Source: Gloeomargarita sp. SRBZ-1_bins_9
Lineage (GTDB): Bacteria > Cyanobacteriota > Cyanobacteriia > Gloeomargaritales > Gloeomargaritaceae
Reading direction: 5' to 3'
DNA length: 59,602 bases
Assembly: GCA_039794565.1 (NCBI GenBank)
Contig: JAUQVX010000007.1
Span: 1 to 59,602, forward strand
The position numbers were made by a program, and so were the translations under genes. Below are positions 36,800 to 44,975 of this stretch, piece after piece. Under the pieces are notes generated by a model, which searched no databases, was not told where the DNA came from, and saw nothing but the letters and a program-made list of their open reading frames with translations. Each line of letters begins with the position of its first letter. The first letter of the stretch is position 1.

Positions 36800-37090
36800 A
36801 TGTTACACCGCAAGCTTTACCAGCTCTGTTGTGATGGTCGCGAAGTGTGGGTCTATCTCAAGGACCAGCAACGCATGATCGAGCGGGCTCGCATTGTGGA
36901 TATTGAGGGGGACTTGGTCACTCTCCGCTACGAAACGGAGGAAGAGGACGAAATTTGCTCCTGGGAAGAGATGGTGCGCATTGACAGCATCGGTTCCATT
37001 ACCCAAAAGATCGCCTCCGTTCCTCGGGGCAACCTAGAACCCCTAGTCTCGGACGAGTGCCCGGAGGCGGAACAAATCCGGGAGGACTAG
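36800..37090 (+). CDS. Small conserved cyanobacterial protein (DUF6679-like)
   Basis: A 96-residue soluble, acidic protein: MLHRKLYQLCCDGREVWVYL, then DIEGDLVTLRYETEEEDEICSWEE. I recall this as a family widespread in cyanobacteria under DUF6679; function unknown. The beta-rich central region with EGDLVTLRY looks like a small barrel. The ATG at 36800 has GAGGAG 9 bases upstream; the frame opens earlier at 36743, but that part would lie across the hairpin. The last 4 bp overlap the convergent DUF1995 gene. Confidence 0.72.
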   Translation: MLHRKLYQLCCDGREVWVYLKDQQRMIERARIVDIEGDLVTLRYETEEEDEICSWEEMVRIDSIGSITQKIASVPRGNLEPLVSDECPEAEQIRED

Positions 37091-37755
37091 GCCCGCAGCG
37101 CCCGCCACAGCCGTTCCAAACCCCGCCAAAAACCACCTCTAGGGGGATGCAGTAACCGCTCCAGGGTCTCGGGGTCTGGATTGGTGGCTGTCTCCCCGAC
37201 AGCTTGGTAATCGCCTTCCAGGGTTTCCCGCCAGACCTGCCAGGGGTCGGGGTAGCGGCGTAAAACAGCTCCCCCCTCTACCGGACGCAGGTGATAGGCG
37301 GTCACCAGGGTTTGGAGGAATTCCCGACGCAACCGGCGACCCGCATAGCCAATGCCCACGGTAGCCGCATCCTCCAGGCGGGGGTTGAGCAGAATCACAG
37401 GGCAGGGGGCCGTTTCCACCAGTAGCCGCACCTCGGTTACCGCCGCCGGGTCGGGAGCAATGACAACCACGCCCTGGTCGGTGGGGTGATGGGGTTCCCG
37501 CAGGGTTTCCAAGCGCCAAGGCACCTCCCCCCAATCCCGCCGCGCCAAGGCCGCTGCCCCCGCATCGGGAAACACCACCCGGCCATGCTCCCCCCATGCC
37601 TCAAACGCCTGCATGAAGGCCCATCCCAGCGCCATCGGTTTAACCTCCGGCAGCCACAGCTCCACCAGTAAACGGGTTTCACCGGCAGCTATTGCTTGTT
37701 GGGCCGCCCTTTGGGCTTGAGCAATGGCCTCTGGCAGGGTTTGCGGCAGGGTCAT
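37087..37755 (-). CDS. DUF1995 family protein (LPA3-like)
   Basis: A 222-residue protein with the DUF1995 pattern: LPQTLPEAIAQAQRAAQQAI, RLLVELWLPEVKP, VVVIAPDPAAVTEVRLL, PVILLNPRLEDAATVGIGYAGR and YHLRPVEGGAVLRRYPDPWQVW. Plant members of this family (LPA3) help accumulate photosystem II, so a photosynthesis-related role is plausible but unproven here. The ATG at 37755 is favoured over 37782. Confidence 0.82.
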   Translation of the reverse strand: MTLPQTLPEAIAQAQRAAQQAIAAGETRLLVELWLPEVKPMALGWAFMQAFEAWGEHGRVVFPDAGAAALARRDWGEVPWRLETLREPHHPTDQGVVVIAPDPAAVTEVRLLVETAPCPVILLNPRLEDAATVGIGYAGRRLRREFLQTLVTAYHLRPVEGGAVLRRYPDPWQVWRETLEGDYQAVGETATNPDPETLERLLHPPRGGFWRGLERLWRALRA

Positions 37756-37832
37756 CGGGTGGTCATCCCCCAAAAACGTCATCTATATTATGAGAAATTA
37801 TGGGGAAAAATGCAGGCGGTGGGCAGATTGCC

Positions 37833-38672
37833 ATGGTCAACTTTTGGCTTGGGCTGCTGGTTAGTTTCGCGGGAATCATCTGGTTATGGCAGCACTACCG
37901 GCGCGTCCATTCCCAGTGGCAAAAACGTGCCCAACAAGCAGAACAAACCCTCCAGGAGGTACAACGGGAACTGACAGCAGTTGTCCAGCAGTATCAGGCA
38001 GCAACCCAAAACCTACAGGAACTGGAACACGACCATCAGCTAGCCCTCGTCCGCATCCAAGCCCTAGAGACGGAAAATCAAAAACTAGAACGGGAAAGTC
38101 AACACTATCAACAGCAGGTGCAACATCTGGAACAGAACTGCCAACAGTTACACAATCAGCTCAATCAAATCCAGCATAACTATCAAGATGCACTCAATTA
38201 TGTCAAGCAGTTAGAGCAGGAAACGGAACAATGGCAGGAGCAAGTGGATCAACTGTTAGAATATGTCGGCAATGGAAAGATTAACCAGCGATTAGAAGTG
38301 TCACCTTCTATTCATCAAATTCCCCATTTCACTGTCATTTTTAAGAGAACAGAGTCGGACCTATATCCTGACGAAATCTACGATACTATCTTGAGTGTTC
38401 TGAAAACCCACATGGATAGTTTGCCCGATGATTACCGTCGTCGCCACCACATTTTACGGGACATTTTGGCATGTAATTCCTTCTCTGGTAACCGGGATAG
38501 ATTTCAGCAAGAAATTAAGTCACTGTTTACCAGCTATCAAGGTAAGACAGAACGACTGGTTCGCGATTTGGGTGTCCTGGGTTTTGAATTTTTAGATAGC
38601 CCGAACCATTACAAAATTAAATGGCGCGGGGATGATCGTTACATTTTTTTCCTTCGCCAAAACCCCGAGTGA
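37833..38672 (+). CDS. Membrane-anchored coiled-coil protein, frameshifted near its C terminus
   Basis: An unrecognised protein. One transmembrane helix lies at the N terminus (MVNFWLGLLVSFAGIIWLW), then a long Gln/Glu-rich coiled coil to about residue 145, then a globular domain with TVIFKRTESDLYPDEIYD. The frame stops at 38672. If one T is removed from the T7 run at 38644-38650, translation continues through FAKTP and [18 protein letters not shown] to a stop at 38724, a very natural ending. So the true gene is probably 18 codons longer. The ATG at 37833 is favoured over 37800 because a TATATT at 37784-37789 would put the mRNA start near 37796. The DNA is AT-richer than the neighbours, hinting at transfer. 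Confidence 0.7.
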   Translation: MVNFWLGLLVSFAGIIWLWQHYRRVHSQWQKRAQQAEQTLQEVQRELTAVVQQYQAATQNLQELEHDHQLALVRIQALETENQKLERESQHYQQQVQHLEQNCQQLHNQLNQIQHNYQDALNYVKQLEQETEQWQEQVDQLLEYVGNGKINQRLEVSPSIHQIPHFTVIFKRTESDLYPDEIYDTILSVLKTHMDSLPDDYRRRHHILRDILACNSFSGNRDRFQQEIKSLFTSYQGKTERLVRDLGVLGFEFLDSPNHYKIKWRGDDRYIFFLRQNPE

Positions 38673-38812
38673 CTACCGCGCCGGTGCCAATATTGCCCGT
38701 GATTTGATTCGCCTCCTGTTTTGAAAGGGCTGGCTGGCACCGATGTCGTCGTATTTTAGTGGATCGTCTCCCGCTACGATGGAGAATAGGGAGGTCAAGT
38801 GGGAGCAACCCA

Positions 38813-40072
38813 ATGGCACAGCGGGCGCGAAAGGTGGTGTTGGCCTACTCAGGGGGGGTCGATACCACAGTCTGTATTCCCTACTTACGGCAGGAGTGGG
38901 GAGTAGAGGAGGTGATCGCTTTGGCGGTAGATGTGGGTCAAGGCATCACCTTGGATATGGCAGACATCCCGGAGCTGGAAATCCGTCGCCAACACCAGCT
39001 GGAGGCCATTCGCCACAAAGCCCTGACCGCCGGCGCCAGCGTGGCCCTGGTGAAGGACGCCCGGGAAACCTTTGTGCGGGACTATGCTATACCGGCGATA
39101 CAGGCCAATGCGATCTACGAAAAGCGTTACCCCCTGATGACTGCTTTGGCCCGGCCGCTGATAGCTCAGTTGTTGGTGGAGGTGGCAGCGGAATACGGGG
39201 CCGATGCGGTAGCCCATGGTTGCACGGGCAAGGGCAATGACCAGGTGCGGTTTGATGTGGCTATTGCGGCGCTGAATCCCCGGCTTAAGGTGCTGGCGCC
39301 GGCGCGGGAGTGGGGCATGAGCCGAGAGGAGACGATGGCCTACGGGGAGCGCTGCGGCCTAAGTTTTCCGGTGAAAAAGTCGTCCCCCTATAGCATTGAC
39401 AGCAATTTGCTGGGGCAGAGTATTGAAGCCGGACCCCTGGAGGACCCCTGGCTGGAACCACCAGAGGAGATTTACACCCTGACGCGCTCGGTAGCCCAGG
39501 CACCCCCCCTGCCGGAATACATCACGGTGGAGTTTGTGGAGGGGCAGCCAGTGGGCTTGAACGAGGAACGACTACCGCCGGTGGATCTGTTCACCCAACT
39601 GAATTTTCTGGCGGGGCGGCACGGGGTGGGCCGGATTGACATGATAGAAAATCGGCTGGTGGGGATCAAATCCCGGGAGGTGTACGAAGCGCCGGGGCTG
39701 ACGGTGTTGCTCACGGCCCACCAGGCCCTGGAAAGTCTTACCCTGACGCGGGAGGTCCTCCACTACAAGTACGGGATTGAGCAGACCTACGCCGAACTGG
39801 TCTACAACGGGCTGTGGTTTAGTCCCCTGAAGTCCGCGTTGGATGCCTTTATCCGGGAGACGCAAAAGCGGGTGACGGGAACCATCCGGCTGCGGCTGCA
39901 CAAGGGCACGGCTACGGTGGTGGGCTGGCAATCCCCCTACTCCCTGTATGACCCGGATTTGGCGACCTACACCGATAGCGACCGGTTTGACCATCGGGCG
40001 GCGGAGGGGTTCATTTATGTATGGGGGTTGCCGCTGCGGGTCTGGGCGCAGGTGGGGCAGAAAAACGCCTAA
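38813..40072 (+). CDS. argG: Argininosuccinate synthase
   Basis: Joins citrulline and aspartate using ATP in arginine synthesis. The 419-residue protein has the PP-loop [32 protein letters not shown], and [18 protein letters not shown]. In place of the more usual DTSV the loop reads DTTV. The ATG at 38813 (MAQRARKVV) is chosen over 38759, since the longer N terminus has no family counterpart. Confidence 0.97.
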
Positions 40073-43686: not shown

Positions 43687-44901
43687 GGGGCAACACCAGG
43701 GATTCCAGTTTGTGTAGGTCCCGCAGGGCGTCGGCAGCAGATGGATAGCGGTCCTGGGGACGGTAGCGGGTCATGGTCCATAGCACCGCCAGCAAGGGGC
43801 CATGGTCGGGTGTGCGCCAGGGGGTTAAATTCAGGTCGCCGGTATGAATATCCCAGGGTAGATCCGTGGGCGGTAACCCTGTGAGGGCCTGCAACGCCAC
43901 CATGCCGAGGGCGTATAAGTCACTGTTGTACTCGGGGTAGCCGAGCAGTTGTTCTAGGGGGGCATAGCCGCGGGTGCCAACGGGGGAGCTGGTGACATAG
44001 GCATCTACTTGTTGGGGTGACAGGTCCTTGACCGCGCCAAAGTCAATCAAGAAGTAGTGGTCGCTGGCATCGGCATAAATGATGTTGTCGGGTTTGATGT
44101 CCCGGTGGATGACACCGTGGCGATGGATGAACTTGAGGGTTTTCAGCAGGTTTTTGAGCAGGCGAAGGACCTGGGTTGGCCGTCGGCAAAACGCTCCCGC
44201 AAAGTTGGCCCGGCAATAAATTCTTCCACCAAATAAAAATTGCCTTCCTGTTCAAAATAGGCCAGTAAGCGGGGAATGCGCTTGTAGTGTCCCAGCCGCT
44301 CGAGAACCTGGGCTTCCCAGTGAAATAACTGCCGGATGCGCTCCAGTTTCTGGGGGTCGCCGGGGGGCACCGAGAGTAATTTCTTTACCACGCACAGGGG
44401 CTGACCGGGCCGGTGCCAATCCTGGGCCAGATAGGTGCGGCTAAAACCCCCTTGCCCCAGGGGGCGCAGAATTTCGTAACGTCCCCCCAGAAGCGAGGGG
44501 TTAAGTGAGCGCTGTGCCCGGATGCTCCGCACCGTCGCCAGTTGAGCCGCTACCCGCGCCGCCACCACTGGTAAGTTCAAGGGTTTGGTGATGTAGTCGT
44601 TGGCGCCTGCCCGCAGGGCCGTAATCACGTCATTGCTGGACTCTCGCCCCGTCACCATGATGACCGGCAAAACCCCCGGCGGATAGCTCTGGCGAATCCG
44701 TCTCAGTAACTCTAACCCCGTCATCCCCGGCAGCAGCCAGTCCAGCAGCACCAGGTCCCAGGCTTGGGCTTGTAGCCGTCCTAAGGCAGTAGCGGGATCA
44801 CCCACCGTCTCTACCCGGTAACCGCCCTGCTGGGTGAGAAATTTCTGGAGGAGCTTACGGGTCAGGGGGTCATCATCCACCACCAATAGCGCTGCTGTCA
44901 T
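43676..44901 (-). pseudogene. Receiver domain fused to Ser/Thr protein kinase, broken by a -1 frameshift
   Basis: The first part (44143-44901) is a CheY-like receiver: Asp9-Asp10-Asp11, phospho-acceptor Asp54, Thr84 and Lys106. A eukaryotic-type kinase follows, with GQGGFS as glycine-rich loop and VVKKL as the Lys. The frame stops at 44143 after ADGQPRSFACSKTC. Adding one C to the C3 run at 44173-44175 (minus strand) gives ADGQPQVLRLLKNLL and then HRHGVIHRDIKPDNI, joining the second part (43676-44172) with LIDFGAVKDL and GTRGYAPLEQ. All key kinase residues are thus present, split over two frames. Total about 409 codons. Probably a recent loss or base-call error; programmed shifting is a remote option. 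Confidence 0.82.
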
Positions 44902-44975
44902 GGGCCTGCCCCAAAAGCTAGTTGCTAGGCCCATCTTAAAGAGTTGCTCCAGCTAGAGGGTCAAGTCCCGCTAGG

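Follow-up and report, generated by a model that had tools for sequence, protein, structure and literature searches.

The window, a stretch of 59,602 nt from Gloeomargarita sp. SRBZ-1_bins_9 (contig JAUQVX010000007.1), contains a gene that is frameshifted near its 3' end at a run of seven Ts. Comparison with homologues leads us to conclude that the long ending, now out of frame, is the ancestral one, and that the lost tail was under purifying selection until recently. As best explanation we take a recent natural mutation from T6 to T7 that inactivated a patchily distributed accessory gene, a reading to which we give an even chance; an assembly or base-call error, with T6 and an intact 296-aa gene in the organism itself, is nearly as likely as mutation.

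The frame break and the ancestral ending

Read from the ATG at 37833, frame 0 runs through the T7 run to a TGA at 38670-38672 and translates to a product of 279 aa ending in RYIFFLRQNPE, while skipping one T of the run keeps the frame open to the TGA at 38722-38724, for 296 aa (Table 1). A preliminary description of this DNA had reported the T7 run, the early frame-0 stop at 38672 and the restoration of a frame to 38724 on dropping one T, all of which we reproduced. Its protein length of 290 residues holds if counting begins at ATG 37800, but the relatives support ATG 37833, from which the translation fits their N-termini (MVNFLLGLLVG or MMPFLLGLLVG).

In a genome of the same genus (G001), an orthologue lies at the same position, with the DUF1995 gene on one side and argG on the other. 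Its 25-residue tail is identical to that of the window, and the last 25 codons differ at synonymous positions only (pN 0.018 by pathway counting, pS 0.70). Intact homologues of 429 and 357 aa in G002 (same genus as the window genome) and G003 have the C-terminus RYTFSFAKTPSDYRADNNIARDLIHLLF, and the same ending recurs in nearly all of 17 aligned relatives, which come from cyanobacteria and gammaproteobacteria. Alignment of 18 sequences, the window protein included, shows K112, S115, D116, R118 and N122 (domain numbering) to be invariant or nearly so, all of them within the tail missing from the short form.

A profile built from the 17 relatives, with the window sequence left out, scores the long form at 162.6 bits and the short one at 122.4. 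When all six frames of the window were scanned with it (1614 segments), the sole other significant match was the out-of-frame tail (E = 2.6e-8); with the higher score of the long form, this shows that the profile match is not due to chance. Since no homologue among those found ends at the short stop, while the extension is carried by G001 and nearly all the others, the long form is best regarded as ancestral. The preliminary description had proposed this alignment and had thought the longer form probably the true one, a view borne out by the G001 tail, the endings of the relatives and the profile scores. The locus thereby has the marks of a recent pseudogene: intact orthologous frames elsewhere, and a lost part that selection maintained until recently.

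Table 1. Features of the frameshifted gene and its immediate neighbours, in window coordinates (G numbers denote other genomes)
Feature	Position	Strand	Basis
DUF1995 gene, 5' neighbour	37087..37782	-	PF09353 E=2e-54; neighbour also in G001, G002, G003, G006
Short frame-0 ORF, 279 aa: membrane helix, coiled coil, C-terminal domain without end of last strand and helix	37833..38672	+	Start chosen from orthologues
Putative ancestral gene, 296 aa with one T skipped	37833..38724	+	Homologue alignment, profile search
Hydrophobic N-terminal segment MVNFWLGLLVSFAGIIWLW, likely membrane anchor	37833..37895	+	Kyte-Doolittle, homologues
Glu/Gln-rich coiled coil, of variable length among relatives	37896..38261	+	Only coiled-coil profiles match
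Conserved C-terminal domain of ~132 residues (long frame), HicA-like in last ~60	38325..38721	+	PADLOC, AlphaFold2, Foldseek
T7 run, site of frame change	38644..38650	+	T3-T4 at most in relatives
Out-of-frame tail: end of beta-3 and last helix	38651..38724	+	Identity with G001; window scan E=2.6e-8
argG, argininosuccinate synthase, 3' neighbour, intact	38813..40072	+	TIGR00032 E=5.5e-158; 90% identity to G001

Origin of the seven-T run

In the explanation that we prefer, replication slippage would have expanded T6 to T7, and the resulting +1 shift would replace the conserved ending, leaving a product with beta-3 cut short and no last helix, which would probably be non-functional or unstable. 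Natural decay is favoured by independent breaks in other family members: the G001 orthologue has a separate frameshift in its linker, away from any long homopolymer; its paralogue is broken as well; a distant homologue in G573 (L049, around 1126) switches frame within the coiled coil, as a one-base indel would make it do; and G011 retains a 65-aa remnant of the domain.

The G001 breaks need some care in this respect. One of ten neighbouring genes in G001 also has an internal stop (a second apparent stop precedes the likely true start), and for this reason we attribute the broken copies there in part to the quality or decay of the G001 genome itself. The gene in question (G001:C10:26945-27670, orthologue of window 44143-44934) is response-regulator/kinase-like and reads IR*THPP where the window reads IRQSYPP. 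The G001 family locus itself (L003:990-2989) consists of two tandem, diverged members before argG, the first frameshifted and the second with an in-frame TAA at 2420-2422.

An error of assembly or base calling would account for a change that sits in a homopolymer, is seen in a single genome and is followed by a tail free of any decay, and a survey of frame transitions leads one to expect that BLAST-validated singleton frameshifts are mostly sequencing errors (PMC3711429). Against this, 38 of the window's 46 homopolymers with a length of 7 or more fall within open frames that span at least 180 aa, the ten neighbouring genes are open, and the same family is broken elsewhere at other sites; the completeness of the genome (99.98%, with 2.22 Mb in 21 contigs) argues against widespread indel errors. 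Our case is like the frameshifted singletons and young pseudogenes of that survey in being a single homopolymer transition, validated by homology, at a site that is not conserved, and differs from them in that several other family members are broken at other sites (PMC3711429). The preliminary description had named three possible causes; two of these, a wrong base call and a new mutation, find comparable support, but the third, slippage on the T tract, does not, since the run is not conserved.

Slippage on T7, whether transcriptional or translational, would make the short and long proteins a regulated pair. A homopolymeric T run does stand exactly at the frame change, so that both products are possible in principle, and mxiE, where slippage is required for the longer product (PMC1088944), provides a precedent. 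The relatives, however, have at most T3 (G001) or T4 (G002 and G003) at this site, and because T7 is absent from all three we judge programmed slippage to be very improbable. The tracts surveyed for slippage were nine A or T long, against seven T here (PMC1088944), and the short tail FLRQNPE, which matched nothing in the profile comparison, is predicted to leave an incomplete fold.

Least probable of all, in our estimate, is a phase-variable (contingency) gene whose T run toggles between T6 (on) and T7 (off). Such a change could revert, and frameshifts do occur in several family members, but the breaks differ from one to the next (linker in G001, nonsense codon in its paralogue, coil in G573) and point to no single conserved switch. 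Seven Ts are moreover short for a contingency tract, which counts against phase variation. Slippage and phase variation have only a slim chance even when taken jointly.

Architecture of the protein and its HicA-like end

In this family a membrane helix is followed by a coiled coil and then by a C-terminal domain, the last part of which has a predicted HicA/dsRBD-like fold. N-terminal residues 1-19 of the window protein have a mean Kyte-Doolittle value of 1.79, the N-terminus is also hydrophobic in most full-length cyanobacterial homologues, and this segment is likely a membrane anchor. The coil differs in length in G002 and G003. Matches of the full protein to Pfam and PADLOC profiles (prominin, tropomyosin, JetC and others) were dismissed as coiled-coil composition matches. 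A sequence search of the PDB returned weak helical or coiled-coil matches only (best E 0.0079, Sso10a), and one of PHROGs nothing significant.

The PADLOC HicA-like profile PDLC02910 matches the long form (E=3e-4, profile positions 8-59 of 61) but not the short form, and matches 12 of the 18 family members (best E 9.9e-7). Pfam at E<=0.1 gave no family for the window domain, nor do the Pfam matches of the members include a HicA model. The AlphaFold2 model, built from four sequences, has a mean pLDDT of 73.6, rising to about 82-88 across most of its final part, and consists of three helices followed by an alpha-beta-beta-beta-alpha order, with predicted elements alpha 76-85, beta 87-90, beta 95-100, beta 103-111 and alpha 119-131. 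On this model the frame break falls after domain residue F108, so that the short product would lack the end of beta-3 and the entire last helix. The best Foldseek match was 5yrz_B, a Streptococcus pneumoniae toxin-antitoxin chain (prob 0.80, with a weak E=0.33), and the top matches include further HicA structures (6hpb, 4c26 and 6g26), all statistically weak.

The dsRBD-like fold of HicA proteins is made up of two helices and a triple-stranded sheet, and the toxicity of the Burkholderia pseudomallei protein depends on His24 (PMC3969222). At position 95 of our domain, the start of beta-2, 16 of 18 members have His, which may be the equivalent of His24, and two have Asn. The last ~60 residues of the family resemble HicA toxins (dsRBD-like mRNA interferases of HicAB modules) in profile, in the predicted order of elements and perhaps in the mostly kept His. 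In contrast to HicA, the family fuses this end to a helical subdomain, a coiled coil and a membrane helix, and it has two motifs specific to it, the invariant D-x-R-Y and K[TS]xSDxR. Neither of the directly adjoining genes (the DUF1995 gene and argG) was recognised as a HicB-like partner. When intact, the protein would probably place an RNA-binding or RNase-like domain at the membrane, perhaps for stress response or phage defence, a function that we guess from the fold and the distribution.

Distribution and meaning

Searched for across the class, the domain turned up in 17 of 390 genomes. We note some particular relatives and loci: (i) Two genomes of another family (f5) have short remnants of the domain, at L015 (G011) and L059 (G081). 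(ii) G004 (L029) has no family gene beside DUF1995, but an apparent tRNA gene and an unrelated gene instead. (iii) G006 was considered as an intact orthologue and rejected, its contig having an N run in the coil and ending at the start of the domain. (iv) A homologue of 473 aa, WP_064169724.1, is found on 5.9-kb ColRNAI mobilizable Klebsiella plasmids. (v) On a mobilizable Citrobacter plasmid, the annotated ORF bearing the domain is only 139 aa long and adjoins Tn4401 (plasmid loci of iv and v: L025:641-2062; L026; L027).

The gammaproteobacterial homologues have the common C-terminal domain together with an N-terminal part that resembles the HEC-07 candidate defence proteins (PADLOC, E 8.8e-10 and 1.3e-8). 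The window protein is without such a part and has the membrane helix and coiled coil in its place. The same C-terminal domain is thus paired with different N-termini, which makes it modular, and the gene is patchy. The gene is accessory, acquired, duplicated and lost by lineages. A phage origin was rejected, with no match in phage records, in viral contigs (by profile) or by tail DNA pattern.

Annotation of this gene should give a protein of 296 aa with a frameshift, and not a natural protein of 279 or 290 aa. Searches of Pfam and NCBIfam placed the family in no known one. One could envision that the membrane-anchored, coiled-coil, HicA-like cyanobacterial family, with its relatives on small mobilizable enterobacterial plasmids (there with an N-terminus like that of defence candidates), is a stand-alone effector not described before (an abortive-infection RNase, for instance), which its carriers have repeatedly and independently switched off by frameshift or nonsense mutation; we consider this doubtful. 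The frameshift itself, of one base and close to the 3' end of an accessory gene, is of an ordinary kind, and the little-studied family is the more interesting part: its anchored HicA-like proteins form a small group of patchy occurrence, whose function may be costly or conditional.
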